NCBI GenBank assembly: GCA_023701285.1
Contig: JAMPXH010000033.1
Span: 1 to 37,224, forward strand
DNA: 37,224 bases
Reading direction: 5' to 3'
From: Candidatus Didemnitutus sp.
GTDB taxonomy: Bacteria; Verrucomicrobiota; Verrucomicrobiia; Opitutales; Opitutaceae
Position numbers and translations under genes: made by a program. This document shows positions 7,439 to 29,570 of this stretch, one piece after another; position 1 is the stretch's first letter, and each line of letters begins with the position of its first letter. Under the pieces are notes generated by a model. It was given only the letters and a program-made list of their open reading frames with translations, searched no databases and was not told the DNA's origin.

Positions 7439-8860
7439 ATGGTTCAGCCTGGCTCCGACAATCCCGACCGCCCGACCTCGCGCCGCAGCGCCTTGCGCGG
7501 GGATGCGTCCGCCGCCTTGGCCGCCAGTGGCCGGGAGATGCCGTGGAGCGAGGAGGCCGAGCAACACGTCATCGCCTGCTGCTTGCTCGACGGCAGCGAT
7601 ACCATCGCGCGCTGCATGGAGTCCCGGATTTCGGCCGACTCCTTCTTCTCCGCGGCGAACCGGCTCATCTTCGAGACGATGGTCGAGATCTACCAGAAGT
7701 CGCCGCCGGTGACGCTGGAGGTCCTGGCCGAGGAACTGCGGACGCGCCGCCACCTCGAGGCGATCGGCGGGGTCCCTTATCTCATCCAGATCACGGGCAA
7801 AATCCCCACGACCGCACACGCCGGCTACTTCATCGAGAAGGTCCGCGAGAAGCACCTCTTGCGCGAGCTGATCAAGACGGCCACCGGCGCGGTCGAGCAA
7901 TGCTACAGCTTCACGGGCGGACTGGAGGAGTTCATCGACCGCGTGGAGCAGGATCTTTTCAAGGTCACCCAGGACCGCGTGAGCGACTCCGCCGCGGAAA
8001 TCAAGGAGGCGATGAAAGATGCCCACACCGTCATCGCGAAGCTCCTCATGAAGAAGGGCGAGCTGACGGGCGTGACGTCGGGGTTCAAGGACCTCGACCA
8101 GATGACCTTCGGCTTCCAGCGGCAGGAAATGATCATCATCGCGGCGCGCCCCTCGATGGGTAAGACCTCGTTCGCGCTGAACATCGCGGAAGCCGCCGCC
8201 CTGCCCAAGAAAGGCGACCCGGTGCCGACCCTGATCTTCTCGCTCGAAATGAGCGCCTCGCAGCTTGCCTTGCGCATGCTGTGCTCGCGTTCCCGGGTGA
8301 ATCTGAAGCTGCTGCGCGACGGCTTGGTCAGCAAGAACGGCGAGGAGGTCAACGCCCTCGGTCGCACCGCGGAGGAGTTCAAGAAGGCTCCCATCCTGAT
8401 CGACGACTCCTCGAATCTCACGATCATGGAGATGCGCGCGAAGGCCCGGCGCATCTACGCCCGCAAGAAGCTCGGCCTGATCATCGTCGACTATTTGCAA
8501 TTGCTGAACGGCACGGATCCCCGCGCGCCGCGCGAACAGCAGGTCGCCGAGGTCTCCCGCGGATTAAAGGCCATGGCGAAGGAACTCGACCTCCCCATCC
8601 TTGTCCTGTCCCAGCTTAACCGCTCTTCTGAGAAGGAGAACCGCACGCCCCGACTCTCGGACTTGCGCGAATCCGGCTCGATCGAGCAAGACGCCGACGT
8701 GGTTCTGATGCTGTCCCGCCCCAAGGATGCCGACGAAAAATTCCAAACTGCAGCCAACGCGGCGGACTTAATCGTTGCCAAGCAGCGTAACGGCCCGGTA
8801 GGTGATTTGAAATTAACTTTCATTCAAGAAATTACGCGCTTTGAAAACTTCACTCCGTAG
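7439..8860 (+). CDS. dnaB: Replicative DNA helicase DnaB
   Basis: This is the ring helicase that unwinds DNA at the fork. From ATG 7439 the protein has 473 residues: a short disordered N-terminus, the N-terminal domain from EMPWSEEAEQHVIACCLLDG, and a RecA-like ATPase domain with Walker A RPSMGKT (about 237-243), Walker B LIIVDYLQLL (about 347-356), LVLSQLNRS and the late motif DLRESGSIEQDADVV. An in-frame ATG at 7292 would add 49 residues with no domain character and lies right behind the terminator, so 7439 is preferred; neither has a clear Shine-Dalgarno. The stop overlaps the bamA start by 20 bases, an unusual pairing of replication and outer-membrane assembly. Confidence 0.92.
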   Translation: MVQPGSDNPDRPTSRRSALRGDASAALAASGREMPWSEEAEQHVIACCLLDGSDTIARCMESRISADSFFSAANRLIFETMVEIYQKSPPVTLEVLAEELRTRRHLEAIGGVPYLIQITGKIPTTAHAGYFIEKVREKHLLRELIKTATGAVEQCYSFTGGLEEFIDRVEQDLFKVTQDRVSDSAAEIKEAMKDAHTVIAKLLMKKGELTGVTSGFKDLDQMTFGFQRQEMIIIAARPSMGKTSFALNIAEAAALPKKGDPVPTLIFSLEMSASQLALRMLCSRSRVNLKLLRDGLVSKNGEEVNALGRTAEEFKKAPILIDDSSNLTIMEMRAKARRIYARKKLGLIIVDYLQLLNGTDPRAPREQQVAEVSRGLKAMAKELDLPILVLSQLNRSSEKENRTPRLSDLRESGSIEQDADVVLMLSRPKDADEKFQTAANAADLIVAKQRNGPVGDLKLTFIQEITRFENFTP

Positions 8861-11180
8861 TCCGGCGTTCCGGGCTTTCGTTTTCCTTTTTGTCCTTTTT
8901 ACCGGCGCGGTTGGCCTCTGGGCCCAACAGCAGCCGCCCCCCCCGGCCCAGATCGGCAAGCTGACGGTGAAGTTCGTCGGCGTGTCCAACGTCAGCGAGC
9001 AGGTCGTCCGGGCCAACATGTCCTTGCGCGAGGGCACGCCGCTCGATGAGTCGCTCATCGACCGCGACATCCGTTCCCTCTACCGCACCGGCCTGTTCGA
9101 GTTCATCGAGGTCAAACGCGAGGAGCTGTCGGAGACGGCGGTCAACCTCGTCTTCGAGGTCACACCCAAATACCGTGTGCTCGACGTCCGTTTCGAGGGC
9201 AACAAGGCCTACAAGGAGCGCCGCCTCCGCCGCGAGCTGAAGACCCTCCAGAACGGCCCGCTCGACGAACGCCAAGTGAAGGAGGACTCGGAGAAAATCT
9301 ACGAGTATTACCAGAAGAACGGCTACAACCAGGCCCAGGTCTCCTACACCATCGACCGCAACCGCAGCACCGGCTTCGGCACCGTCACCTTCAAGATCCG
9401 CGAAGGCGCGAAGGTGAAGATCAGCTCCATCCGCTTCGTCGGCAACGACAACGTCAAGGCCCGCCGCCTCCGCAAGGAGATGGAGACGAAGAAGTGGCAT
9501 CCCTTCTCCTGGATCACCGGCGGCGGCCGCTTCAAGGACGACGAGTTCGACGAGGACCTCGAGAAGCTGCGCGACTACTACCGCGAGGAAGGTTACCTCG
9601 ACGTCGAGATCGCCGAGGACAAGGTCACCTTCGACTATCCCTCCGCCAGCAAGCTCGTCATCACCATCCGCGTGGAAGAAGGCCGCAAATACCGCGTCGG
9701 CGACATCACTTTCAAGGGCAACAAAATCCATCCGTCGCGCCTGCTCGGCCTCGTCGTCCGCCAGCGCAAGGGCACCACCTTCGTGCCCTCCAAGCTCGAT
9801 AAGGACGTCGAGAACCTCGAGGACTTCTACGGTCGCAGCGGCCACCTCGACACCCGCGTGCGCCTCAACCGTAAACCCAATCTCCAGACCGGCGATATCG
9901 ACGTCGAATACGAGATCACCGAGAGCGAGAAATTCCAGGTCGAGTCCGTCAACATCGAGGGCAACTCCAAGACCAAGAGCATCGTCATCCTCCGCGAACT
10001 CGTGCTCGGCCCCGGCGACGTGTTCGACTCCGTGCGCATGAAGATCTCGAAGGCGCGCCTCGAGAACACGCGCTTCTTCGACGACGTGAACGTGACGCCC
10101 GAGTCGACCAACATCCCCGGTCGCCGCAACCTGCGCGTCGCGGTCAAGGAAGCCCGCACGGGCAACCTGACCTTCGGTGCCGGCTTCAGCTCGCTCGAAC
10201 GCGCCGTGGTCTTCGCCGAAATCACCCAGTCGAACTTCGACCTGTTCAACCGGAAGTCCTTCTTCCAGGGCGACGGCCAGAAGTTCCGCCTGCGCCTCCA
10301 GCTCGGTTCCGAGTCCAGCGAAGTCGTGCTCGCCTTCGAGGAGCCCTGGCTCTTCGAGCGCGAACTGGCGCTGGGCTTCCAGCTCTTCCGCACGACCTCC
10401 GAATACCAGAGCGCCTACTACGAGGAAATCCGCACCGGCGGCCAGATCTACATGCGCAAGCGCCTCTTCGGCCTCATCGAAGGCACGGCGACCTACACTT
10501 ACGAAATCGTCGACATCGACAACGTCGACGCCTCCGCGCCCGCCGTGATCCAAGGCCTCGCCGGTCAGACCTCGGTCTCCAAAGCCGGCTTCGCCCTCCT
10601 GCGCGACACGCGCGACAAGATCATCAACACCACGCGCGGCAACCGCGTGGAACTCATCACCGAGGTCGCCGGCGGCCCGCTCGGAGGCGACGTCGACTAT
10701 TACCGCCTGGAGTTCCGCGGTTCCCAGTTCTACCCGGTCTTCGAATTCCAGGATCAGGTCCTCGCCCTCATCGCCCGCGGCGGCGTGGTGCAGGATTTCG
10801 GCGACAGCACGGACGTCCCGTTCTACGACCGCTACTTCCTCGGCGGACCGCAGACGCTGCGCGGCTTCGAGTATCGTGAGGTCGGCCCGAAGGACCAGTT
10901 CGGCGAGCCGCTCGGTGGCAAGTCCTACGGCTTCTTCTCGGCCGAATACTCGTTCGATATCGTCAAACCGATCCGCTTCGCCGTGTTCTACGACGGCGGC
11001 TTTGTGAATCGCGGGGCCTACGACTTCTCGCCCGGCAACTGGAACGACAACTTCGGCTTCGGTCTCCGTCTCTTCGTCGCCGGCGCCCCGCTGAGCCTCG
11101 ATTTCGGCATCCCGCTGACCGGCGATCGCTTCAACAAGAAGGGCAGCCAGTTCAACTTCTCCTTCGGCACCCGCTTCTGA
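8841..11180 (+). CDS. bamA: Outer membrane assembly factor BamA
   Basis: BamA inserts beta-barrel proteins into the outer membrane. The 779-residue protein has a signal peptide (about 1-29, with FVFLFVLFTGAVGLWAQ), five POTRA repeats (about 38-430, marked by repeated patterns such as VLDVRFEGNKAYKERRLR and YRVGDITFKGNKIHPSRL) and a C-terminal barrel (about 440-779). The barrel contains the lid-lock motif TLRGFEYREVGP and ends in an aromatic residue (FSFGTRF), as outer-membrane barrels do. The start is TTG at 8841, chosen because it opens the signal peptide; no ATG is available before the first POTRA. It overlaps the end of dnaB. It is followed by skp and lpxD, the classic envelope cluster. 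Confidence 0.95.
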   Translation: MKTSLRSPAFRAFVFLFVLFTGAVGLWAQQQPPPPAQIGKLTVKFVGVSNVSEQVVRANMSLREGTPLDESLIDRDIRSLYRTGLFEFIEVKREELSETAVNLVFEVTPKYRVLDVRFEGNKAYKERRLRRELKTLQNGPLDERQVKEDSEKIYEYYQKNGYNQAQVSYTIDRNRSTGFGTVTFKIREGAKVKISSIRFVGNDNVKARRLRKEMETKKWHPFSWITGGGRFKDDEFDEDLEKLRDYYREEGYLDVEIAEDKVTFDYPSASKLVITIRVEEGRKYRVGDITFKGNKIHPSRLLGLVVRQRKGTTFVPSKLDKDVENLEDFYGRSGHLDTRVRLNRKPNLQTGDIDVEYEITESEKFQVESVNIEGNSKTKSIVILRELVLGPGDVFDSVRMKISKARLENTRFFDDVNVTPESTNIPGRRNLRVAVKEARTGNLTFGAGFSSLERAVVFAEITQSNFDLFNRKSFFQGDGQKFRLRLQLGSESSEVVLAFEEPWLFERELALGFQLFRTTSEYQSAYYEEIRTGGQIYMRKRLFGLIEGTATYTYEIVDIDNVDASAPAVIQGLAGQTSVSKAGFALLRDTRDKIINTTRGNRVELITEVAGGPLGGDVDYYRLEFRGSQFYPVFEFQDQVLALIARGGVVQDFGDSTDVPFYDRYFLGGPQTLRGFEYREVGPKDQFGEPLGGKSYGFFSAEYSFDIVKPIRFAVFYDGGFVNRGAYDFSPGNWNDNFGFGLRLFVAGAPLSLDFGIPLTGDRFNKKGSQFNFSFGTRF

Positions 11181-13969: not shown

Positions 13970-14019
13970 GGCGGTTGCGGAACCGCTCGGGCTGGCTAGT
14001 GTCCGAGCCAACTCTCCCT

Positions 14020-15441
<1,422 letters not shown>

Positions 15442-17175: not shown

Positions 17176-19182
17176 TCAGGCGCGCTGGACGACGGGCAGG
17201 AGCACGCGGAAGACCGCGCCGCGGCCCGGTTGCGATTGCACCTCGAGCCGGCCGCCTTGCAAGGTGAGCAATTCGCGCACGATGAAGAGGCCGAGGCCGG
17301 TCGAGTCTTCGTCGCCGGTGGGTTGGGCGGAGAGGCGTTGGTTCGGGGCGAACATCTTGGCGAAATCCGCCGGACCGAGGCCGGGGCCGCTGTCGCGCAC
17401 TTCTGCGTAACCCCACGCGCCCGTCTGCCCGAGCGCGACGGTGACTGCGCCGCCGGGCGGGGTGAACTTGAGCGCGTTGCTGATGAGATTGTCCATCACC
17501 TGGCGCAGGCGATCCTCGTCGGCTTCGACGCGGGGCAGGGCGGTGATCGAGGGCAGGATTTCGAGCCGCTGGTTCTTTTGTGCGGCGACGGGCAGCAGGC
17601 TTTCGACGGCGGCGCTGCTGACGGCGGCCAGATCGATCTCCGCGGTGTGCAGCTGCAGGTTGCCGTCCTCGATCGCGGAGGCGTCGAGAAAATCGCGCAC
17701 CAGGTTGCGCATGCGCGCGGTGTCCGCCTGGATGCCATCGGCGAGGCGGCGCACAGTGGAGGCGTCGTCCGGGCTGGTGCCGATGAGGCGTGCCGTGGCG
17801 TTCAGCGCGGTGAGCGGGACCTTCAGGTCGTGCGAGGCCATCTGCAGCAGGCGCGACTTGAGCCGCTCGGCTGCCTCGGCGCGGGCGCGGGCGTCCTCGG
17901 TGGCGGCGCGCATGCGGCGCTCGGCGCGCAGGCGCACGAGTTGCACGAGGGTGATCGCGCCGAGGAGCGTGACGCCGCCGATGCCGGCGGCGGCGAGCGC
18001 GAGGTTTTGCGAGCGGCGGCGGCTGAGCTCCGCGCTCTGCAATTCCTGCTCGCGCTTGAGGAGGGTGATTTCCAGTTCGCGCTGTTCCTGTCCGTAGCGG
18101 GCGCGCAGCTCGGCCATGCGGCGCCGGTCCTGGTCGCTGCGGATCTCATCGGTCACGCTGCCGAGCTTGCGTTGATACTCGAGTGCGGGGGCGAATTCGC
18201 CACGGGCCTCGTGGGTGAGCGCGAATTCCTGGTAGATGTCGACGAGCACCTCGGGGCTGGCCAGCGACTGGCCGATCTGCAGGGCCTTGTCCAAGTGGGC
18301 GAGGGCGTCGGTGGTGCGGCCGGCATTGCGGAGCACGCGCGCGAGCCGGCGGTGGGTGTTGGCGATGTAGCGCCGGTATTTGAGCGATTCGAAGGTGGTG
18401 AGCGCCTGCTCGAGGTAGGCGAGGGCGGTCGCGTAGTCGCCGCGACCGTCGGCGGCAAGGCCGAGGTTGGTGAGCGTGACCGCGATCGCGCGGCGGTTGC
18501 CGGAGGCTTCGCGAATGCGCAGGACCTGAGTATGCAGCGCGGTGGCGCGCTCGTAATCGCGCTCGCTGAGGTAATGGTTGCCGATGCTGTTGAGGATGCT
18601 GGCGCGCATCGGCTGATCGCCGGCCTGCTCGGCGAACTGGAGGCCGAGGTCGAAGTGGTGAAGGGCGTCCTCGTTGCGGCCGAAGCGCTGGTAGGTCAGG
18701 CCCAGGCCGCCGTGCGTGCGCGCGAGGCGGGCGGGGTCGTCGATTGCCTGCACGAGGCGGAGTTCCTCCAGGTGCGTCTCGATCGATCGGGGGTAGTCGC
18801 CGATGTTCCAGTAGATGCGCCCCATCATGTAGAGAAAATCTACCTGGAGGCGGGTATCGCCGATGCGCTGGGCCCGCGCCAAGCCGTCCTTGGCCCCGGC
18901 AAGACCGTCGCTGTAATCGCCCCGGCGCCGCATCAAGTTCACCATCTGCAGGAGGGCGCGCAGGATGTCGGGCTCCGTCTTGGCGTTGGCCAGCCGTTCC
19001 TGGGCGTTGACGAGGGTTTCGTCGGTCTCGGCGAAATCAGGATCGCTCAGATTGGCGGCCGGTAATTCGGCGGCGGGCAGGGCTGCGGTCGCGCAGAGGC
19101 AAAGGAGCGTGAACCAAAGGCACCGGGCGGAGTGGCGGCGTCCTGATGAATCGGAGCGGCGTGCTTCAGACGAGGTTCCCAC
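17176..19182 (-). CDS. TPR-sensor membrane histidine kinase
   Basis: A predicted sensor kinase. From GTG 19182 it has 668 residues: a signal peptide (about 12-38, WFTLLCLCATAALPAAEL), a periplasmic TPR superhelix (about 60-340) with repeats such as ASILNSIGNHYLSERDYERA and VTLTNLGLAADGRGDYATAL, a coiled coil (about 345-390), one membrane helix (about 393-417), then a HisKA domain with phospho-acceptor H451 in MASHDLKVPLTAL and an ATPase domain (DNLISNALKFTPPGG, VRDSGPGLG, STGLGLFIVREL). The start is uncertain: the frame stays open to 19476, but that stretch is not coding-like, and GTG 19182 has no Shine-Dalgarno. No response regulator is adjacent; one lies 6 kb away. The signal sensed is unknown; TPRs suggest a protein or peptide partner. 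Confidence 0.85.
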   Translation of the reverse strand: MGTSSEARRSDSSGRRHSARCLWFTLLCLCATAALPAAELPAANLSDPDFAETDETLVNAQERLANAKTEPDILRALLQMVNLMRRRGDYSDGLAGAKDGLARAQRIGDTRLQVDFLYMMGRIYWNIGDYPRSIETHLEELRLVQAIDDPARLARTHGGLGLTYQRFGRNEDALHHFDLGLQFAEQAGDQPMRASILNSIGNHYLSERDYERATALHTQVLRIREASGNRRAIAVTLTNLGLAADGRGDYATALAYLEQALTTFESLKYRRYIANTHRRLARVLRNAGRTTDALAHLDKALQIGQSLASPEVLVDIYQEFALTHEARGEFAPALEYQRKLGSVTDEIRSDQDRRRMAELRARYGQEQRELEITLLKREQELQSAELSRRRSQNLALAAAGIGGVTLLGAITLVQLVRLRAERRMRAATEDARARAEAAERLKSRLLQMASHDLKVPLTALNATARLIGTSPDDASTVRRLADGIQADTARMRNLVRDFLDASAIEDGNLQLHTAEIDLAAVSSAAVESLLPVAAQKNQRLEILPSITALPRVEADEDRLRQVMDNLISNALKFTPPGGAVTVALGQTGAWGYAEVRDSGPGLGPADFAKMFAPNQRLSAQPTGDEDSTGLGLFIVRELLTLQGGRLEVQSQPGRGAVFRVLLPVVQRA

Positions 19183-19608
19183 GGGGGCAGCACGATTGGC
19201 AGGATTGGTTGGCTCCGTCGAGCGCAGGATTGCGGAAGAGACGGAAATGGAGACGCGGGCCGCCTGCGTGGAAGATCGCGACCACGGCTGCGTTACGCGC
19301 GGCCCCGGATAGAGTGACGGCCTTTGTGGTTGGGCAGATGCGTTCTCGCGCCGGGCAAGAGTGGCGTCCATGCGCTCGGTGGCGAATCGTCGGCGCGATG
19401 ACGGATTGCGCGCTGGAGGCAGCCACGGCGCGTGTGGGGCTGCGGTGACAAATATCGCGGAGGCTGGCCAAGGCAACGATGTCGCTTCGATGGCCGAAGG
19501 AGCTGCGCTCTGCGGTCCGCTGTGGCAGGCTGGATTTTTCCGGGGGAACAGGTCGGGAAAGGTGTTGACACCACAGTCGCGTCATTAAGTTTTGGCGTTC
19601 CGTTTTTT
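19183..19608. other. Intergenic stretch between kinase gene and tRNA array
   Basis: About 425 bases without a convincing gene. Open frames exist on both strands, but they have no domain, signal or codon character. Apart from the promoter at 19565-19591 no hairpin, repeat or RNA gene was recognised. The minus-strand leader of the kinase gene must start somewhere in it. Confidence 0.5.
19565..19591 (+). promoter_or_regulatory. Promoter for the tRNA array
   Basis: A perfect -35 TTGACA (19565-19570) is followed by a 15-base spacer and TAAGTT (19586-19591), 18 bases before the first tRNA. The spacing is short but the place fits a stable-RNA promoter. Confidence 0.5.
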
Positions 19609-19851: not shown

Positions 19852-19925
19852 TGCCTGGTGGTGTAATGGTAGCACAGCAGATTCTGACTCTGCTTGTCTA
19901 GGTTCGAGTCCTAGCCGGGCAGCCA
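19852..19925 (+). tRNA. tRNA-Gln(CTG)
   Basis: The acceptor strand TGCCTGG pairs with CCGGGCA. The anticodon loop TTCTGAC on a GCAGA/TCTGC stem gives CTG, reading CAG. Discriminator G and CCA are encoded. Its last 14 bases including flank, CCGGGCAGCCACGC, are identical to the end of the tRNA-Asn fragment at 4275-4288. Confidence 0.95.
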
Positions 19926-20175: not shown

Positions 20176-20841
20176 ATGATTACTGCACACATGCCCCTGG
20201 CGTTTCTGATGAACATGACTCCGATGGAGCTCTTCAAGTATGGCGGCCCTATCATGTGGCCCATCTTGCTGACCTCCCTGCTGTCGCTCACCGTGGTCAT
20301 CGAGCGCGTGATTTTCATCATCCGCGAGAATTCCCAGCGTGATCAGGCCGCCATCGAGCAGATGCTGGAGAAAGTCGAGTCGCGCGACATCGAAGGCGCG
20401 ATGGAAATCGGCCGCAAGACGAAGGACTTCGTCGCGCGCATCCTCGTCTACGCTCTCTCGCACCGCGAGCACTCGCTGGCCAACGCCTTTGTGCGCGCCT
20501 CCAATCAGGAGCTGAACCGCTACAAGCAAGGTCTCACGATTCTCGACACCGTCATCACCGCCTCGCTGCTCCTCGGCCTCCTCGGCACGGTCACGGGCAT
20601 GATGGAGACCTTCGGCGCCCTCGGCGCGGGTGGCGATATCGCCGCCAACGCGGCCCGAGTCATGGCCGGCGTCGGTGAGGCGCTCATCGCCGTTATGACC
20701 GGTCTCGCCATCACGATCATCACGCTCGTGCCGTTCAATTATCTGAACGCCCGCATGGAAGAGGCGCGTCACGAGGTGGAAGACGCCTCGAACTCGCTCG
20801 AGATCATCATCAACAAGCAGGAATCCACGGTCCGCAGCTAA
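20176..20841 (+). CDS. exbB: ExbB/TolQ/MotA-family proton channel subunit
   Basis: It forms the inner-membrane stator that uses the proton gradient to drive TonB. The 221-residue protein has a first membrane helix (about 24-50, GGPIMWPILLTSLLSLTVV), a cytoplasmic loop of about 75 residues (KVESRDIEGAMEIGRKTKDF), and two closely spaced helices (about 125-147 with LLLGLLGTVTGMMETF, and about 165-190 with ALIAVMTGLAITIITLVPFN), the ExbB topology. It heads the operon exbB-exbD-exbD-tonB-TPR-two coiled-coil genes. ATG 20176 has no Shine-Dalgarno; another ATG lies five codons downstream. Confidence 0.92.
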   Translation: MITAHMPLAFLMNMTPMELFKYGGPIMWPILLTSLLSLTVVIERVIFIIRENSQRDQAAIEQMLEKVESRDIEGAMEIGRKTKDFVARILVYALSHREHSLANAFVRASNQELNRYKQGLTILDTVITASLLLGLLGTVTGMMETFGALGAGGDIAANAARVMAGVGEALIAVMTGLAITIITLVPFNYLNARMEEARHEVEDASNSLEIIINKQESTVRS

Positions 20842-20889
20842 GCCCTCGCGGCTTCGCGCGAATCCGCGTCAACCTCAACCCTACGCACC

Positions 20890-21315
20890 ATGCACGGCGG
20901 CGGCGGTGGCACAGGCCCAGATGGAGTCAAGAAGGCACGTATCGAAATCGTGCCGATGATTGACATCATCTTCTTCCTGCTCGCGACCTTCATTCTCTTC
21001 ACCCTCTCGCTGAACAAATCGGACGGCATCACGGTCGCTTTGCCGGCCGCCGATACCGCCATCGATCGCGACCCGGCCGGCACGGCCACCGTCTCCGTCA
21101 CCGATGAGGGCACGCTGGCTTGGAACAAGGATCTGGTCACGCTCGACGAGTTTCTGGTCCGCTTGCAGCAGTTCAAGCAGGCCGAGCCCGACGGGCGCAT
21201 CCTGATCAACGGCGACGAACGCGCCTTCTTTGCCCAAGCCATCTACGTCTTCGACGAGGCCCGCAAGGCCGGCTTCACCAAGGTCTACATCGAGACGCGG
21301 ATGAAGCAGCAGTGA
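20890..21315 (+). CDS. exbD: ExbD/TolR-family protein, copy 1
   Basis: This is the proton-coupling partner of ExbB. The 141 residues comprise a short Gly-rich cytoplasmic start, one membrane helix with the essential Asp (VPMIDIIFFLLATFILF, Asp near residue 24), and a periplasmic domain (about 60-138, ending VFDEARKAGFTKVYIETR). It lies 48 bases after exbB. Around the membrane helix, an 87-base stretch (20929-21015) is identical at 80 positions to the second exbD at 21404-21490, far more than the rest of the genes, which suggests recent duplication or gene conversion. Confidence 0.92.
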   Translation: MHGGGGGTGPDGVKKARIEIVPMIDIIFFLLATFILFTLSLNKSDGITVALPAADTAIDRDPAGTATVSVTDEGTLAWNKDLVTLDEFLVRLQQFKQAEPDGRILINGDERAFFAQAIYVFDEARKAGFTKVYIETRMKQQ

Positions 21316-21379
21316 GCTTCTAAGAAAGCTCGCTCCCGTCCGTTAATCCTCCCGGCAGGACCTCAACTTCCCATCCCTC

Positions 21380-21796
21380 ATGCAAGTCAAGCTACGGCCA
21401 ATGAAGAAGGCACGCATCGAAATCGTGCCGATGATCGACATCATCTTCTTCCTGCTCGCCACGTTTGTGCTCTTCACCCTCTCGCTGAACCGCATCCGCT
21501 CGGTGCCGGTGGACCTCCCGTCCGCCCAAGCCAGCACGAATGCGGCCAAGGAGGAGCCGACCACGATCCAGGTCTCCGAAGGTGGCGCCATTTATTGGAA
21601 CCGTGAGCTGGTCGACATCGCGGATTTGCCCGCGATGCTGGCCAACTACCGCAAGGAAGTGGAGGACCCCAAGATCCTCATCGCCGGCGACGAGAAGGCC
21701 CGCTTCGGTGCCACTGTTGCCGTGCTCGACGAAATTCGTAAGGCCGGCATCGAGAAATTCTCGGTCGAAACCCGCACCCGTCCGACGGGCAAATAA
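21380..21796 (+). CDS. exbD: ExbD/TolR-family protein, copy 2
   Basis: A second ExbD of 138 residues with the same order: a short basic start, a membrane helix holding the key Asp (VPMIDIIFFLLATFVLF), and a periplasmic domain ending VLDEIRKAGIEKFSVETR. The periplasmic part differs clearly from copy 1, so the two probably form a heteromeric stator or serve different partners. It lies 64 bases after copy 1, and tonB follows after nine bases. Two ExbD genes beside one ExbB are known from TonB clusters of other Gram-negative groups. Confidence 0.92.
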   Translation: MQVKLRPMKKARIEIVPMIDIIFFLLATFVLFTLSLNRIRSVPVDLPSAQASTNAAKEEPTTIQVSEGGAIYWNRELVDIADLPAMLANYRKEVEDPKILIAGDEKARFGATVAVLDEIRKAGIEKFSVETRTRPTGK

Positions 21797-21805
21797 GGAG
21801 CAACC

Positions 21806-22459
21806 ATGCGCAGAGACCTCATCATCGGTGTGATCCTTTCCATCAGCCTCCACGGTCTGTTGCTGGGTGCCTTCAACCGCAAGGCTCCGCCCAAGGCCAA
21901 GGTCGTCGAGGAAGAGGTGAAAGTTGTGCAGATGGAGATGCCGGAGATCGAACCGGAAAAGGAAGATATCGTGGAAGAACTGGCCGAGGAGGCGCCCACG
22001 AACCAGCTCGCTCCGCCGATGCTCGCGGACGTTCCCTCCGTCTCCGTCACCGCCTTCACCCAGCCGCTCCAGCCGCCGCCCCCGCCCGGCCTCACCGCCG
22101 CCAAGGGCGCCATCGCCATCCCGGTGGTCAAGCCCGGCACCAAGCTCGGCCAAGGCATGAAGGATCTCTTCGACGTCGCCAACCTCGACCAGATCCCTGT
22201 CGCCCGCGTGCAGCCGGCCCCCAACTATCCCTTTGAAATGAAGCGGGCCGGCATCTCCGGCACCGTCACGCTGGAATTCATCGTCGATTCCAAGGGTGAC
22301 GTCGTCGCGGTGCAGATCATCCGCTCCTCCCAACGCGAATTCGAACAGCCGGCCATCCAAGCGGTCCAGAAGTGGAAATTCCGCCCGGGTCGCAAGGGCG
22401 GCCGGGCCGTCAACACCCGCTGCCAGATCGAGATTCCCTTCACCCTTACTGACGATTGA
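21806..22459 (+). CDS. tonB: TonB energy transducer
   Basis: It carries energy from ExbBD to outer-membrane receptors. The 217-residue protein has an N-terminal membrane anchor (about 5-22, LIIGVILSISLHGLLLGAF, which includes the conserved Ser-x3-His-type SLHG), an acidic and then Pro-rich periplasmic spacer (about 35-110), and a C-terminal TonB domain (about 130-215) with PNYPFEMKRAGISGTVTLEF, VDSKGDVVAVQIIRSS and AVQKWKFRPGRKGG. Unusually for this window it has a good Shine-Dalgarno, AAGGAG, five bases before the ATG. The spacer is short. The next gene starts three bases after its stop. Confidence 0.95.
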   Translation: MRRDLIIGVILSISLHGLLLGAFNRKAPPKAKVVEEEVKVVQMEMPEIEPEKEDIVEELAEEAPTNQLAPPMLADVPSVSVTAFTQPLQPPPPPGLTAAKGAIAIPVVKPGTKLGQGMKDLFDVANLDQIPVARVQPAPNYPFEMKRAGISGTVTLEFIVDSKGDVVAVQIIRSSQREFEQPAIQAVQKWKFRPGRKGGRAVNTRCQIEIPFTLTDD

Positions 22460-22461
22460 TC

Positions 22462-23802
22462 ATGCCGTCTTTCTCCCCCCACCTGCGTCGTCTCCTGCTT
22501 GTGGCGGCATCCGCCGCCAGCCTGACGCTGGCCTCATTCGCCCAGGAAGAGCGTAGCTACGCCCTGAGCGATGCCACCAGCGAGGTGCTCGGCACCACTT
22601 ACAAGACCGCCGCCGAAGCCAAGAACTACGACGGTGCGCTCGCGGCGATCAACGGCCAGCTGGCCAAGGTCGCCGACCAGACCAGCTTCGACGCCGCCGT
22701 CCTCCTCCAGATCAAGGCGCAGACCCTGCTCCAGAAAGGCGATTTCAGCGCTGCCGTCGAGCCGCTGGAGCGCGCCCTGAAGCTGTCCGATTCGAAGAAG
22801 CCGACTTACTTCGACGAGCGCATCACCCAGGAATTCCTGTATTACTTGGCGCAATTGCACTTCCAGGAGGCCACGACGACCAAGGTCGCCACGTCGATCG
22901 CCGGCCACTACGAGAAGGCCGAGAGTTTCATGGAGCGCTGGATCGCCAATAACCAGAAGCAGAATCCGGATGCGCTGCTCTTCTACGCGTCGCTGCTCTA
23001 CAATCGCGCCATCCAGAACGCCGAGACCCCCAATGTGGAGCCGATCAAGAAGGCCCTCGGCGTCGTCGACTCCGCCCTCCGGATGTCGACCCACCCGAAG
23101 GACAATCTCTACGTGTTGAAGCTCGTCTGCCTGCAGCAGCTCGACCGCAACGAGGAAGCCACCGAACTGCTCGAGCTCCTCGTCAAGCAGAAGCCCGACA
23201 ACCGCACCTACTGGCAGCAGCTCGCCGCCCTTTATCTCGGCCAGCAGAAGGATATCCGTGCGATCATCACCTTCGAGCGCGCCCAAGCCAACGGGTTCAT
23301 GAACGGCCCGAAGGACAACTTCAACCTCGTCGGCATCCACTTCAACCTCGGCCTTTACGACCGTGCGGCTGAGCTTCTCGAAAAAGGCCTCACCGACGGC
23401 ACGATTGAAAACGAGGAGAAAAACTGGGAGCTGCTCGCGTATTCCTATCAGCAGCTCAATCGCGACCTGAAGGCCATCGACACCCTGAAGCGTGCCACCG
23501 AGAAGTTCCCGGAGTCGGGCCAGTTGGAATATCTGATCGCGCAAAACTATTACGGCTTGGACAAGGCCGAAGCCGCCCTTCCTCACCTCCAGTCTGCGGT
23601 GCGCAAAGGTGGCGGCGCCAAGCCGCACACCACCTACCTCTTCCTCGCGTTCATCGCGTATGAGCTGAAGAAATTCGACATCGCCCTCGAAGCCTCGGAG
23701 CAGGCCATCGCCACGCCCGAAGGCAAAGCGGAGGGCGAGCGCATGAAGCAGGCCATCCTGGACCTGCTCAAGGAGCGCGAAGCCAAGATGCAAAAATCCT
23801 GA
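22462..23802 (+). CDS. Exported TPR protein of the TonB operon
   Basis: A 446-residue protein with a signal peptide (about 1-29, LRRLLLVAASAASLTLASFA then QEE) and about nine TPR-like helical pairs to the end (for example FDAAVLLQIKAQTLLQKGDF, LLAYSYQQLNRDLKAIDTLK and GQLEYLIAQNYYGLDKAEAA). It is predicted to be periplasmic and to bind proteins. A TPR protein downstream of tonB is also known in the TonB2 clusters of Vibrio and Shewanella, where it is needed for TonB2 function; a similar role is inferred here. The ATG at 22462 is preferred over an in-frame TTG two codons earlier that overlaps the tonB stop. Confidence 0.85.
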   Translation: MPSFSPHLRRLLLVAASAASLTLASFAQEERSYALSDATSEVLGTTYKTAAEAKNYDGALAAINGQLAKVADQTSFDAAVLLQIKAQTLLQKGDFSAAVEPLERALKLSDSKKPTYFDERITQEFLYYLAQLHFQEATTTKVATSIAGHYEKAESFMERWIANNQKQNPDALLFYASLLYNRAIQNAETPNVEPIKKALGVVDSALRMSTHPKDNLYVLKLVCLQQLDRNEEATELLELLVKQKPDNRTYWQQLAALYLGQQKDIRAIITFERAQANGFMNGPKDNFNLVGIHFNLGLYDRAAELLEKGLTDGTIENEEKNWELLAYSYQQLNRDLKAIDTLKRATEKFPESGQLEYLIAQNYYGLDKAEAALPHLQSAVRKGGGAKPHTTYLFLAFIAYELKKFDIALEASEQAIATPEGKAEGERMKQAILDLLKEREAKMQKS

Positions 23803-23821
23803 CCCATCTAACGACACCCCC

Positions 23822-24352
23822 ATGAACAAAGTCTACATCCTCTTGCCGGTCATCGGCGTGATCATGTTCTCGGTCTTCTACGTGAACTTCAACAAGGGTC
23901 ACGAAGCCAAGATCGCCGAGGCCAAGGCCAAGGTCGAAGAAGAGCGCCGCGAGAAGGCCAAAAAGGAAGTCGCCGCGCGCGAGCAGGCGATCAAGGCCGC
24001 CATCGAGGCCGCGGAGAAGCGCAAGATCGAGCGCGAACAGCGCGAGCGCACCGAAGAGGCCAAGAAAAAGGCCCGCCTGGACGCCGAAGATCGCCGCCAA
24101 AAGGCCTTCGATGACCGCAAGCGCACCAAGGACCAAGTCGAGCGCCTCAAGAAGGACGTCGAAATCGTCAAGACCGAGGTCGCCAAGCTTGAGGACGAGA
24201 AGAAGAAGCACCGCGATGAGCAGGCCTTCCTCCGCACCTACGTGAAGCAGGCCGAGTCCAACGTGAAGTATTACTACGACCTGCTCGAGAAACTCAACGC
24301 GGCGGAGAAGGCCCGCGCCGAGGCCGCCGCCGCTGCCGCCAAGAAAAGCTAA
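23822..24352 (+). CDS. Membrane-anchored coiled-coil protein 1 of the TonB operon
   Basis: The family is not recognised. The 176-residue protein has an N-terminal membrane helix (about 4-22, VYILLPVIGVIMFSVFYV) followed by a nearly unbroken Lys/Glu/Arg/Ala-rich helix (about 28-155) that should form a long coiled coil, and an Ala-rich tip ending KKS. It is a paralogue of the next gene in layout and opening residues (MNKVYILLP versus MNKFYIIAP). Topology is either periplasmic or cytoplasmic; TolA-like periplasm-spanning is one possibility. It lies 19 bases after the TPR gene in the TonB operon. Function is inferred only from context, as a structural or force-transmitting part of the complex. 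Confidence 0.8.
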   Translation: MNKVYILLPVIGVIMFSVFYVNFNKGHEAKIAEAKAKVEEERREKAKKEVAAREQAIKAAIEAAEKRKIEREQRERTEEAKKKARLDAEDRRQKAFDDRKRTKDQVERLKKDVEIVKTEVAKLEDEKKKHRDEQAFLRTYVKQAESNVKYYYDLLEKLNAAEKARAEAAAAAAKKS

Positions 24353-24373
24353 CCTTTCCGAAGCACACGCAAC

Positions 24374-24907
24374 ATGAACAAATTTTACATCATCGCTCCG
24401 ATCGTTCTGCTGGGCGTCTTCGTCTTCTTCTACCGCGGCGCCCTCCAGGATATGGCTGTGCGCGACGCCGAGAAGGCTCGCTTGGCTCAAATCGAACAGA
24501 AGAAGGAAGACGCGCGCCGCCAGGAAGTCGAAGAGAAGGCCGCGGCTGATGCCCGCCGTCGCCAGGAAGAGCGCGAAGCCGCCGACCGGGCCAAGGAAGA
24601 GAAGCGCGTCCGCGAATACGAGGAAGGCATGCGCCTGCTCACCGAAGAGGCGAACCGCTACGCCGCCGAGGCCGACAAGAACGCGAAGGATGCAGCCGAA
24701 CTCGAGATCCAATTGCTCGAGCTGCGCAACCTGCGCGACAAGACCAACCGCGAGGCCTTCGAATTGGCCAAGCAGGTGGAACTCGCCAAGGTCGAACGCC
24801 GCAACGCCGAACTCGAGATCCAGCGCATGGTCGACATGGTCGGTCAGCGCGTCGGTTCCAGCTCGTTCGCGGCCATGCCGCCGCCGCCCGCGCCGGCCCG
24901 CAAGTAA
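24374..24907 (+). CDS. Membrane-anchored coiled-coil protein 2 of the TonB operon
   Basis: The family is not recognised. The 177 residues comprise a membrane helix (about 4-20, FYIIAPIVLLGVFVFFY), a long charged helix with heptad character (about 25-160), and a short Ser/Pro tail (MPPPPAPARK). It shares layout with the preceding gene, so the pair may form a heteromeric coiled coil. There are 21 bases between them. It is the last gene of the unit; the terminator at 24931-24957 follows. Compared with its partner, the helix is richer in Arg and Glu and less in Lys. Confidence 0.8.
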   Translation: MNKFYIIAPIVLLGVFVFFYRGALQDMAVRDAEKARLAQIEQKKEDARRQEVEEKAAADARRRQEEREAADRAKEEKRVREYEEGMRLLTEEANRYAAEADKNAKDAAELEIQLLELRNLRDKTNREAFELAKQVELAKVERRNAELEIQRMVDMVGQRVGSSSFAAMPPPPAPARK

Positions 24908-24930: not shown

Positions 24931-24957
24931 AGCCGCACCCTCGTGGTGCGGCTTTTT
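24931..24957 (+). terminator. Terminator of the TonB operon
   Basis: A 9-bp stem AGCCGCACC / GGTGCGGCT with loop CTCGT is followed by a T-run. It closes the exbB to coiled-coil unit. Confidence 0.85.
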
Positions 24958-25035: not shown

Positions 25036-25112
<77 letters not shown>

Positions 25113-25376: not shown

Positions 25377-26033
25377 TCAGCCGAGACCGTTGCGCAGGCA
25401 CCAGCGAACCAGGGTCGGCACATCATGCAGCCCGAGTTTGGCCAGGATACGTGCGCGGTGTTTCTCCACGGTGCGCGTGCTGAGCCCGAGTTGGGCGGCG
25501 ACTTCCTTGGACACCAAACCGCGCGCCACCAAACGCACGACCTCCTGCTCTCGCTCGGAGAGTGCATCGGCGCCGAGACGCGGGAGGTTGGGCTCGGCCG
25601 CCAGGGTGGGGATGGGCGGCGGGACATTGGCCGAGAAAAACATGCCGCCTTCGAGCACGCATTGCACCGCGCGGTCGATCTGCTCCAAGGGGGAATTCTT
25701 GTCGACGAATCCCGCCACGCCGAGCGAGACGAGCTCCGCGGGCAGCTGCGCTTCGGGATGAGCCGTGAGCACGACGACTTTCGTCTCGTGCTTGTGGCGG
25801 CGCAATTCGCGCACGATGTCGCGACCGTCCATGTCGCGGAGGTAGAGATCCGCGATCAGCAGGTCGGGCGGAGCGCTCAGGCACGAGGCCAGGGCCTCCT
25901 TGCCGTTGCCGAAGTCGCGCAGCTCCTTCGGTTGAAAGCGGCGCTGGAGCGCCTCCTTGAGGAGTTCACGGAACGTCGCAGTGTCGTCGACGAGCACGAA
26001 GCGCAACGCGGAGGACGCGGCGGGAGGGGGCAT
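25377..26033 (-). CDS. NarL/FixJ-type response regulator
   Basis: A predicted DNA-binding two-component regulator. From ATG 26033 it has 218 residues: a receiver domain (about 10-125) with the acidic pair D16/D17 in VLVDDTATF, phospho-acceptor D62 in LLIADLYLRDMDG, T90 in VVVLTAHPE and K112 in GFVDKNSP; and a LuxR-type HTH (about 155-212, LSEREQEVVRLVARGLVSKE and LGLSTRTVEKHRARI). Longer readings from TTG 26054 or GTG 26048 are disfavoured because a -10-like TATAAC lies at 26055-26060. No kinase is adjacent; NarL-type regulators usually pair with HisKA_3 kinases, unlike the one at 17176. It is divergent from the TonB receptor gene. Confidence 0.9.
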   Translation of the reverse strand: MPPPAASSALRFVLVDDTATFRELLKEALQRRFQPKELRDFGNGKEALASCLSAPPDLLIADLYLRDMDGRDIVRELRRHKHETKVVVLTAHPEAQLPAELVSLGVAGFVDKNSPLEQIDRAVQCVLEGGMFFSANVPPPIPTLAAEPNLPRLGADALSEREQEVVRLVARGLVSKEVAAQLGLSTRTVEKHRARILAKLGLHDVPTLVRWCLRNGLG

Positions 26034-26054
26034 GGCGAGTTCAATCACACCCAA

Positions 26055-26270: not shown

Positions 26271-29200
26271 ATGAAATTGCACCTCCGCACACCGTTTTTG
26301 GCGGGATTCACCCTTGCCTGCACGGCGGTCGCGAGCTGGGCGCAGACTGCGCCCGCCACGACCCCTCCACCTTCGCCCGATCGGGAGGGCGAGGTGGTCA
26401 AGCTGGATACCTTCACGGTCACCGGCACCAACATCCGCCGCATCGACGAAGAGACGACACTCCCCGTGACCGTCCTCGACGCGGATGATCTCGCGGCCTT
26501 CGCCGCGCCGACGCCCTCCGAATTGCTTTCGATGCTCCCCAGCGGCGGCGTCATCACCCTCGGCGAATCCAACGTCCTTGGCGCCGATGCCCGCGGTGAC
26601 AACACCTCGCTCAACCTCCGTGGCATCGGCTCGGGCAACACGCTCGTGCTCGTCAACGGCCGCCGTCTGGCGCCCCATCCCGTCAGCCAAGCCGAGGGTG
26701 GCGTGCCTTCCCTCGCCGTGAACGTCAACCAGCTCCCCAACGCGGCCATCGAGCGCGTCGAGGTGCTGCGCGAAGGTGCCTCCGCCATCTACGGCGCCGA
26801 TGCCGCCGCGGGTGTCGTGAACACGATCATTCGCAAGGACTATCAAGGCTGGGAAGTGAAAATGCGCGGCAGCGTCACCGAGCACGGCGGCGCCAACGAC
26901 TGGCGCGTCACCGTCACCTCCGGCGATTTCTACAACGCCGGCCGCACCCACGTGACCGCGATGCTCGACTTCTATCACCGTGACTTCCTCGGCACGAAGG
27001 ACCGGCACTTCTCGAGCCAGTCCGACATCCGTAAGACAGCCAATCTGCCCGAACCTTGGAGCACGACCGACAGCGACTTCGACAACAGCTCCTCGGCGTC
27101 GAACTTCGGTAACTTCATCCGCGGCTCCTTCGACGCGAACAACAATTTCGTCGGCGCCCGCCCCACCAGCAATCGCGGCATCTCCACGACCTCGCTCACG
27201 TTCGCCGGTGGCGCGCCGAACATGACCCTCACCAGCGGCGGTGCGTTCTTCATCGTGCCCAACACCGGCGCGGCCATCGGCGTCGCGGCGAAGCAGACCA
27301 CGCCCTCCCGCACCGCCGGCAGCGTCGAGAACGATTATTACTACAATCTCAATCAGCACCGCACGATCCTGCCCGCGACCGATCGCTTGAATTTCTTCAC
27401 GCAGATCGACCACGAGATCAACGACCGCCTGTCAGCCTTCGCCGAAATCGCCTACTACCGCGCCGACTCCACCGGCACGCGCGACCCGCAGGGCACCGAC
27501 GGCACGGATGACTTCAACCTCTACGTCGGCATCGACAACCCCTACAATCCCTTCGGCTCCCGCTTCTACCACCCGACGGGCCTCGCCAACACCGACGGCA
27601 CGCCGCGCATCACCGGCACTCCTGCCGCCGTCATGATCGCCGGCAGCACCGGAGTCCGCCCGCGCGAGTTCAAGGAGCGCTCCATCAACGTCCTCTCGCA
27701 GTCCTTCCGCGGCGTCGCCGGCCTGCGCGGCAAGACCTTCGCGGATTTCGAGTGGGAGTCGGGCATGATGTATTCCCGCGCTTGGACCCGCGATGAGGAA
27801 TCCTTCAACGTCCGTCACAGCCTGCTGCAGGATGCGCTCCTCCGCACCGACGCGACCGCCTTCAACCCCTTCGGCTACACCTTCAAGCTCACGCCGAATC
27901 CCGGTGGCGTCACCGGCGGTGGCACCGCGGTCAGCAATCCCTACTTGATCCAGATCGACAAGGCCTACACCAACCCCGACTCCGTCGTCGACCCGCTCTA
28001 CGACACCTTCATCCGCGAGGGCCGCACCGAGCTCGCGACGTGGGACGGCAAGATCAACGGCACTCTGTTCGATCTCTGGGGCGGCGGTGGCCGCGTGGCG
28101 GCCGCGCTCGGCGCCGAGTATCGCTGGGAATCCTACAGCGATTGGCGCCCGCCCTATCACGGCCTGAATCCCGACGGCTTCCTCGTCAACGCCCCCGGCT
28201 TCCCGGCCGTCGACAACGACTTCGTCGGCCTGTCGCCGAACCGCAATCTCTACTCGGATCGCGACGTCATGTCGACCTACGGCGAATTGCTCTTCCCGAT
28301 CGTCAGCCGTAAGAACCGCCTCCCGCTTGTGCAGGCGCTCGAGGTTGGCGTCGCTGGCCGCTACGAGAAGTTCTCCGACTTCGGCGATGCGTTCAAACCG
28401 AAGTATTCCGTCGCCTGGCGCCCCACCGGCAACCTGCTGTTCCGCGCCTCGTATAACGAATCCTTCCGCGCGCCCAATCTGGTGCAGACCAACACCTCGC
28501 CGCTCCAGCGCTCGGTCAGCGGCGTGTCCGATCCGTATCGCTTCACGGTCACCAACGTCATCACCGACGGCAGCGTGAGCCGCACCGTCTTCCGCCAGGG
28601 CAACGACCAGCTCGATCCCGAGGAGTCGCGCATCGCGACCGTCGGCTTCGCCTTCGAGGTGCCGAAGATCAAGGGCCTCACCTTCACCGCCGACTGGTGG
28701 CGCATCGATCAGAACAAGGTCATCGACAACCTGACCGCCAGCGGCCAGCTCACGCGCGACCGCGACCTGCTCGACGTCCTCAGCCGCGCCGCGATGGACG
28801 CCGGCATCGACGTGAACACGATCGACGTCGGCTCGGGCACCGCCGGTTACCTCGGCAACACCAAGGTCAATCGCGCTCCGCTCACGGCCGCGGACCTCCT
28901 CGCGTTCTCCACCTACAACGCCGCGAATCCCGGCTCCCAGCGCATCCCGGTCGGCCGCGTGCTCTCCGTGGTCGACGACTACATCAACCTTTCCGGCCGC
29001 GACATCGAGGGCATCGACATGGCACTCTCGTATCGCTCCCCGCGGTTCTCCTTCGGCCAGTTCACGATTCGCGGCAGCGCGACCTACACCACGAAGTTCC
29101 TCGAGAAGCTCGACGAGTTCTCCGAGCCCGACAGCGTGCTGCAGGAAGACGGCCGCGCCAAACTGCGCGCCAACGGCAGCCTCACCTGGCGCATCGGCAA

Positions 29201-29570
29201 GTGGACGGCCGGCTGGTCTTCGGAATACTACGGCGGCTCGATGGACCCCGGTGCGGCCCTGGCCACCGGCGCCACCGGTCAGGCGCTCTACGAAGCGCTC
29301 GGCAGCCCGAGCTACATCAAGGTGTTTCACGACATCGGCGGCGTCGTCCGCTATCGCTGGTGGATCGAGGACACCTGGCAGCACAACGTCTATCTCCAGC
29401 ACCGTTTCGGTCGCCAGAAGGACATCCACAACAACGTGACCGTCCGCTTCGGCATCACCAACGTCTTCGATGAGGAGCCGCCGCTCGCGGATGAAAGCCG
29501 TGGCTACCAAGGCGGCACCGTGAGCGCCAAGGGCCGCACGTTCTACATCGATATCACGAAGAAGCTCTGA
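26271..29570 (+). CDS. TonB-dependent outer membrane receptor
   Basis: A large (1099-residue) ligand-gated outer-membrane transporter. It has a signal peptide (about 1-25), a TonB box near DTFTVTGTNIRR (about 45-56), a plug domain (about 60-200, with SLNLRGIGSGNTLVLVNGRR and ERVEVLREGASAIYGADAAA) and a barrel to the end. The C-terminal part contains FGITNVFDEEPPLADES and ends FYIDITKKL. Size and plug style resemble the oligosaccharide or large-substrate receptors common in Opitutaceae and other Verrucomicrobiota, but the substrate cannot be read. There is no Shine-Dalgarno before ATG 26271. It faces a divergent response regulator over about 240 bases, and is probably driven by the ExbBD-TonB operon upstream. 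A terminator follows. Confidence 0.93.
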   Translation: MKLHLRTPFLAGFTLACTAVASWAQTAPATTPPPSPDREGEVVKLDTFTVTGTNIRRIDEETTLPVTVLDADDLAAFAAPTPSELLSMLPSGGVITLGESNVLGADARGDNTSLNLRGIGSGNTLVLVNGRRLAPHPVSQAEGGVPSLAVNVNQLPNAAIERVEVLREGASAIYGADAAAGVVNTIIRKDYQGWEVKMRGSVTEHGGANDWRVTVTSGDFYNAGRTHVTAMLDFYHRDFLGTKDRHFSSQSDIRKTANLPEPWSTTDSDFDNSSSASNFGNFIRGSFDANNNFVGARPTSNRGISTTSLTFAGGAPNMTLTSGGAFFIVPNTGAAIGVAAKQTTPSRTAGSVENDYYYNLNQHRTILPATDRLNFFTQIDHEINDRLSAFAEIAYYRADSTGTRDPQGTDGTDDFNLYVGIDNPYNPFGSRFYHPTGLANTDGTPRITGTPAAVMIAGSTGVRPREFKERSINVLSQSFRGVAGLRGKTFADFEWESGMMYSRAWTRDEESFNVRHSLLQDALLRTDATAFNPFGYTFKLTPNPGGVTGGGTAVSNPYLIQIDKAYTNPDSVVDPLYDTFIREGRTELATWDGKINGTLFDLWGGGGRVAAALGAEYRWESYSDWRPPYHGLNPDGFLVNAPGFPAVDNDFVGLSPNRNLYSDRDVMSTYGELLFPIVSRKNRLPLVQALEVGVAGRYEKFSDFGDAFKPKYSVAWRPTGNLLFRASYNESFRAPNLVQTNTSPLQRSVSGVSDPYRFTVTNVITDGSVSRTVFRQGNDQLDPEESRIATVGFAFEVPKIKGLTFTADWWRIDQNKVIDNLTASGQLTRDRDLLDVLSRAAMDAGIDVNTIDVGSGTAGYLGNTKVNRAPLTAADLLAFSTYNAANPGSQRIPVGRVLSVVDDYINLSGRDIEGIDMALSYRSPRFSFGQFTIRGSATYTTKFLEKLDEFSEPDSVLQEDGRAKLRANGSLTWRIGKWTAGWSSEYYGGSMDPGAALATGATGQALYEALGSPSYIKVFHDIGGVVRYRWWIEDTWQHNVYLQHRFGRQKDIHNNVTVRFGITNVFDEEPPLADESRGYQGGTVSAKGRTFYIDITKKL

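Follow-up and report, generated by a model that had tools for sequence, protein, structure and literature searches.

The roles of ExbB and ExbD as a motor and of TonB as a carrier of force are known for their families, and TtpC, a component of extended TonB systems, is an ExbB-type protein of greater length that carries an N-terminal domain. In the TonB2 operon of Vibrio vulnificus, TtpB2 is a DUF3450 protein and TtpD2 a tetratricopeptide-repeat (TPR) protein, and all six TonB2 components, including TtpB2, TtpC2 and TtpD2, are described as essential for siderophore uptake (PMC6957404). DUF3450 is in turn listed among the domains that ExbB-type subunits can carry as additions at the N or C terminus (PMC12505986). 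The DNA analysed here, a stretch of 37,224 nt from Candidatus Didemnitutus sp. (Opitutaceae, Verrucomicrobiota; contig JAMPXH010000033.1) referred to as the window, contains a TonB-type operon of seven genes, exbB-exbD-exbD-tonB-TPR-CC1-CC2, of which the last two encode predicted membrane-anchored, rod-like coiled-coil proteins. In homologous operons of pair-less relatives, TtpB and TtpC are present where CC1 and CC2 are found here, and the simplest reading of the comparison is that CC1 and CC2 supplanted TtpB plus TtpC within this lineage, by place and not by descent.

All seven open reading frames (ORFs) were confirmed on the + strand at 20176-24907 and were tightly packed, with intergenic gaps of 48, 64, 9, 2, 19 and 21 bp in order. 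When profiles of the seven window proteins were used to annotate the loci, the TPR, CC1 and CC2 genes followed each other on one strand in all 81 loci read (80 CC2 loci and the window), and the whole seven-gene unit was present in 76 of these, the other five (L087, L106, L110, L122 and L126) running into a contig end. The 76 include irregular loci, namely those with swapped coil profile labels (L115), a long TPR frame that sorts first (L129), a broken CC1 frame (L085), a second CC2 fragment (L113), extra ExbD and TonB frames (L096), and three coils (L123, L131 and L133). Since the gene order is kept across the family, the unit is more than a chance arrangement. Among 26 further CC2 places checked against the TPR places, 23 were beside one, and of the remaining three, one starts at a contig end (G091:C327) and two are short fragments (G068:C301 and G104:C76). 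The scan of named genomes, whose counts are not independent of the family draw because the two share genomes, retained 80 of the 111 matched loci, 67 of them whole and 13 cut by contig ends; in one of them (L228) the ExbB frame was broken in two. This neighbourhood survey had been set beforehand as the refuting test, and in it the pair stayed with exbB, exbD, tonB and the TPR gene; a location mainly away from exbB and tonB was rejected on the 81/81 TPR-CC1-CC2 arrangements and the 76 whole units.

Seven genomes carried extra whole units, each copy with its own coils: four in G005, and two each in G004, G034, G046, G080, G097 and G118. The four units of G005 were all located on contig C1 (L112-L115); the genome measures 7.4 Mb and has 18 ExbD matches. 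The three-coil units, all from one genus, consisted of two CC1-like coils and one CC2.

By profile search, CC2 was detected in 95 of 120 family genomes, representing 39 of 49 genera, and CC1 in 94. Among the named records listed, one from a Candidatus Didemnitutus metagenome-assembled genome came nearest to CC2, at 97% identity. In a draw of 288 genomes over the phylum, full-length CC2 occurred in 24 family genomes and in G235, from another family of the order, and the TPR profile marked the identical 25 genomes. Partial CC2 matches were obtained in 17 other phylum genomes at E ≤1e-3 and in three further order genomes, mostly within open frames of 245-1368 amino acids (aa). In the order draw (132 genomes), the full-length CC2 genes outside the family were those of G235 and G462, both with the whole unit. 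In the genome draws the system is essentially confined to one family, the Opitutaceae. Two of the 80 named-genome loci, L175 and L193, present the unit or its end on contigs filed under Acidobacteria; L175 shares 98.8% identity with a metagenome-assembled genome of Opitutia over 3.1 kb and 85% over another 2.6 kb, and for L193 the identity to Opitutae loci is 71-80%. Both look misbinned, and a spread beyond Verrucomicrobiota was set aside as unsupported.

The TPR profile also matched four family genomes without CC2 (G013, G019, G042 and G110). In these four and in G048, the pair-less locus held a DUF3450 (TtpB) gene over the Pfam cut-off and two kinds of ExbB, an N-terminally extended protein of the ExbB type (451-465 aa) and a short one. 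TonB, a TPR gene and one or two ExbD genes were also present, giving the gene composition described for V. vulnificus TonB2 (PMC6957404). For example, the Pfam check of the G019 locus returned DUF3450 (E-value 5.5e-71), MotA_ExbB twice, TonB_C and TPR. The TPR proteins of the pair operons and of the G013, G019, G042 and G110 operons were homologous (hhalign E-value 5.7e-42 over 360 columns). For TtpB and the N-terminus of TtpC, the five pair-less loci supplied the profiles, whose matches there are by construction, the independent basis being Pfam DUF3450; none of the 81 pair loci, five of which are cut by contig ends, matched either profile. The longest of the 76 ExbB open frames in pair loci was 342 aa, and no copy of TtpC length was found among them; G000, a pair genome, gave no DUF3450 match at E 1e-3. 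Because the pair-less loci hold both TtpB and TtpC and none of the pair loci matches either, the rods appear to replace them. DUF3450 was above cut-off in 14 of 25 CC2-less genomes versus 17 of 95 CC2-bearing genomes (Fisher p 0.0005, with shared ancestry uncorrected), and in the latter 17 it was either on a different contig or distant from the pair. Unlike the pair, DUF3450 is distributed across the phylum (72 of 288 genomes).

The first-pass annotation, made from the sequence alone, likened exbB, both exbD genes, tonB and the TPR gene to known extended TonB systems; the five identities were confirmed by Pfam matches over cut-off: MotA_ExbB in exbB (E-value 9.4e-22, 77.6 bits against a cut-off of 22.9), ExbD in exbD1 (9.3e-25, 87.6 bits) and exbD2 (2.9e-28, 98.9 bits), TonB_C in tonB (5.1e-21, 75.4 bits), and several TPR models in the TPR protein. 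TonB also scored 59.9 bits against the 27.1 cut-off of NCBIfam TIGR01352, and the two ExbD proteins were 47.2% identical over 127 positions (BLASTP). All three TonB-energising features were present, i.e. an ExbB-family channel, ExbD with a transmembrane (TM) Asp, and TonB_C with Ser-x3-His in the TonB TM helix; of the 78 family rows, 68 keep S12 and 73 keep H16. On these gene families, the operon is predicted to be a TonB-energising system that acts on receptors. The E. coli-type equivalogs of NCBIfam were all below cut-off, with ExbB at 45-48 bits (cut-offs 135-206), ExbD at 34-48 (123-216), and TonB at up to 25.7 with the PRK10819 models (265-448).

ExbB and both ExbD proteins scored better with the NCBIfam TolQ/TolR models than with the ExbB/ExbD models, all below cut-off, which would fit a Tol-Pal-like role in which the rods stabilise the envelope by tying it, or the motor, to the wall or outer membrane, and TonB serves mainly something other than nutrient uptake. 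CpoB of Tol-Pal, moreover, has a coiled coil. That CpoB is a TPR protein (PMC12204202) adds to the resemblance, and yet such a role is unlikely, as the C-terminal domain is TonB_C over cut-off, neither TolB nor Pal is among the seven genes, and 1.4 kb downstream the window encodes a TonB-dependent receptor. In addition, the unit was the only exbB-exbD-tonB locus found in three pair genomes, G000, G003 and G049, to which this check extends; for each of the other three ExbD loci, the surrounding 6.7-8.5 kb that were read contained no TonB match. G000 is 95% complete, so that a locus may have been missed, and it contains at least 16 TonB_C matches, listed down to 2.4e-11. The 18 ExbD matches of G005 are more than in the three checked genomes.

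CC1 and CC2 returned no Pfam match at E 0.1 and NCBIfam matches far below cut-off, and the PDB profile search gave only keratin for CC2 (E-value 0.003) and nothing for CC1. The description of the two as a paralogous pair holds, as their family profiles are alike by hhalign (E-value 2e-21, probability 99.4) and the proteins by BLASTP (25.8% over 186 columns, E-value 1e-12, composition correction off). Coiled coils can inflate such scores; in a control, the CC profiles gave probabilities of 0.4-0.5 against two other coiled-coil-containing profiles. AlphaFold2 predicted one unbroken helix at residues 4-175 of CC1 (mean pLDDT 91.9, pTM 0.43) and 4-162 of CC2 (mean pLDDT 90.3, pTM 0.44), with no predicted C-terminal globular domain, and together with the TM alignment rows this agrees with the earlier claim of a single N-terminal anchor followed by a long helix. 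Counted from residue 22 onwards at 0.15 nm per residue, the modelled rods would measure about 23 nm (CC1) and 21 nm (CC2).

Mean net charge was positive in residues 2-6 (CC1 +1.72, CC2 +1.47) and about zero after the TM helix in residues 23-37 (CC1 +0.35, CC2 -0.06), so that an N-in orientation with the rod in the periplasm is the more likely topology. Lys and Arg counted alone are commoner in the 15 residues after the TM helix (2.8-3.1) than in residues 2-6 (1.5-1.7), which would suit cytoplasmic coiled coils, N-out, on the cytoplasmic face of ExbB. This orientation is improbable in view of the net charge and the very short N-terminal tail, and the partners also point elsewhere, since the TPR protein begins with a signal-like stretch and the C-terminal domain of TonB is known to be periplasmic for its family.

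Within the TM helix, four positions were conserved in both paralogues: Y5 (CC1 72/75, CC2 74/76), P9 (75/75 and 69/76), F16 (75/75 and 75/76) and an aromatic residue at 20 (74/75 and 75/76), which in the CC1 of the window read Y5-P9-F16-Y20; I7 of CC2 was about as steady as position 20. Only frames that measured 150-200 aa once their starts had been trimmed entered the alignments, 75 of 85 for CC1 and 77 of 82 for CC2. The Y5-P9-F16-[aromatic]20 residues fall within 60 degrees on the helical wheel in both paralogues. Because a bare anchor needs no conserved one-sided stripe, this suggests that the TM helix packs on a protein partner. The Ser-His-Leu-Ser (SHLS) motor-binding motif of TonB and TolA is spaced 4-7-4, like the stripe; this is a lead only, as one-sided stripes are often so spaced. 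TonB and TolA are reported to bind their motors through the SHLS motif (PMC12204202).

A standing membrane-partner contact, as the stripe in both paralogues suggests, and the steady coil length across loci (medians of 180 and 177 aa for the two coils) speak against a chaperone or assembly-factor role, in which CC1 and CC2 would recruit TonB or the TPR protein, or protect it, and stay outside the working motor. Such a function would be in keeping with the last position of the two genes in the operon and with the proline-rich tail of CC2 (45 of 77 rows have PP among the 25 C-terminal residues), which could be a peptide ligand of the TPR protein, but we regard it as unlikely. It is also doubtful, though somewhat less so, whether CC1 and CC2 form heteromeric periplasm-spanning rods that dock on ExbB through the Y5-P9-F16-[aromatic]20 face and act as a second helical transmission element or a fixed strut beside TonB, having replaced TtpB/TtpC in the lineage. 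If true, CC1 and CC2 would give a TonB machine a new means of spanning the envelope.

The reading that we prefer, with a probability of roughly 0.6, is that the unit encodes one TonB energiser in which the CC1 and CC2 rods replace TtpB and TtpC in their job, hold the motor and dock it via the TPR protein. In this mechanism, ExbB and the two ExbD proteins would form the proton-driven motor, TonB would carry force to outer-membrane receptors, and the TtpD-type TPR protein, presumably periplasmic, would act as a hub. CC1 and CC2 would be anchored in the inner membrane by their conserved TM helix, each projecting a continuous helix of about 21-23 nm into the periplasm, enough to come near the wall or outer membrane. 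There they may do the structural job of TtpB (DUF3450) and of the N-terminal periplasmic part of TtpC, keeping the motor in place and, by way of the TPR protein, fixing it to the wall or outer membrane, which would prevent the force on TonB from being lost.

Several observations weigh against this reading. CC1 and CC2 were not detectably related to TtpB or the TtpC N-terminus (hhalign probability 0.4-0.5 in four comparisons), on which detectable homology of the pair to DUF3450 or to the TtpC N-terminus was rejected; the TtpB and TtpC N-terminus profiles compared with each other at a probability of 27.9. Because no sequence relation was detected, the equivalence of the rods with the Ttp proteins rests on operon place. 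The exclusion is not absolute, as 17 of the 95 CC2 genomes also have a DUF3450 gene elsewhere, and 11 of the 25 CC2-less genomes have neither the pair nor DUF3450. The TPR protein of G048 matched weakly to the pair-type profile (2.7e-12) and not at all to the Ttp-type one. Coiled coils modelled as single chains tend to come out as one long helix, and the models of CC1 and CC2, with pTM values of 0.43-0.44, are silent on partners; the topology rests on a modest charge bias.

Features of the seven-gene unit and its boundaries (positions in the window).
Feature	Position	Strand	Length (aa)	Basis and remarks
exbB (MotA/TolQ/ExbB proton channel)	20176..20841	+	221	PF01618
exbD1	20890..21315	+	141	PF02472; transmembrane Asp in VPMIDIIFFL
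exbD2	21380..21796	+	138	PF02472
tonB	21806..22459	+	217	PF03544, TIGR01352
TPR protein, TtpD-type	22462..23802	+	446	Pfam TPR models; N-terminal signal-like stretch
CC1, predicted anchored single-helix rod	23822..24352	+	176	AlphaFold2 helix, TM motif
CC2, predicted anchored single-helix rod, proline-rich tail	24374..24907	+	177	AlphaFold2 helix, TM motif
Intrinsic-terminator-like hairpin	24931..24953	+		9 pairs, then T-rich tail
tRNA-Gln, upstream boundary of unit	19852..19925	+		ARAGORN
tRNA-Pro, downstream boundary of unit	25036..25112	+		ARAGORN

The start of the TPR gene was taken at its first ATG (22462), the ORF listing giving an alternative TTG start at 22456. That the whole unit ends in one terminator, as first annotated, is plausible only: the hairpin and T-rich tail are present, and the stem is the longest among the terminator-like sites listed for the region, but the number of such sites, six observed versus 6.6 expected from shuffles, was not above chance. 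A sigma-70-like promoter was looked for in the region and none was found. The TonB-dependent receptor downstream of the unit (26271-29570; plug and barrel) is a possible client. A histidine kinase with an N-terminal TPR array (17176-19476, - strand), upstream of three tRNA genes, and a LuxR-type response regulator (25377-26054, - strand) bracket the unit. Farther upstream, the window encodes a BamA-like Omp85 protein with five POTRA domains (8841-11180), followed by a DegP-like protease (13975-15441).

Two of the loci without tonB in G000 have further genes beside the motor genes. At L243 (G000:C89, 1047-4085), exbB and exbD, which represent a second possible motor, are adjacent to the gene of a 639-aa protein whose TPR match is weak and below cut-off. 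At L245 (G000:C189, 2411-4306), exbB, a divergent exbD and an unmatched 302-aa frame are followed by an EF-Tu gene.

Among the open-licence papers listed on TonB/ExbB systems, Verrucomicrobiota and Ttp/DUF3450, no title or abstract beginning describes the unit, and the seven-gene unit is likewise undescribed in the parts covered of PMC6957404, PMC12204202, PMC13274419 and PMC12505986. The earlier suggestion of an undescribed machine stands as far as the CC pair is concerned, for which no description was found; the unit is not without precedent, because its TPR protein is homologous to that of the Ttp-type operons of relatives, in which TtpB and TtpC are present where the pair is here. Two proteins without a Pfam family thus gain a family and a context. 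The system bears on how an ExbB-ExbD motor passes force over a periplasm of about 20 nm without drifting in the membrane, and a family-wide TonB system with rods in the place of TtpB/TtpC would be a natural replacement experiment for the Ttp accessory roles.

Compared with ExbB-ExbD-TonB of E. coli, the operon has the same Pfam families of motor and transducer, but it adds a second ExbD, the TPR protein and CC1/CC2, and its proteins fall below the equivalog cut-offs. With Tol-Pal it has in common the motor superfamily and a helical periplasmic element (TolA domain II, PMC12204202). It differs in TonB_C, in CC rods that have no predicted C-terminal globular domain, and in the absence of TolB and Pal from the seven genes, the rest of the genome not having been searched for them. 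The vWA force transducers of the Planctomycetes-Verrucomicrobia-Chlamydiae (PVC) group, as described in PMC12204202, resemble the unit in a TPR gene, a motor and a heterologous tolR-like pair; the transducer there is a vWA protein, whereas TonB_C and CC1/CC2 are found here, and no vWA domain was matched among the seven window proteins (Pfam). The likeness to the Vibrio TonB2 type consists of ExbB, ExbD, TonB and TPR in one operon with extra components beside the motor, and of a TtpD-type TPR protein, the latter via the Ttp-type operons of relatives, whose sequences, and not those of Vibrio, were compared. The pair operon differs from that type in lacking a TtpB/TtpC match (81 loci) and in having two ExbD genes and, instead of the Ttp proteins, two putatively anchored rods.

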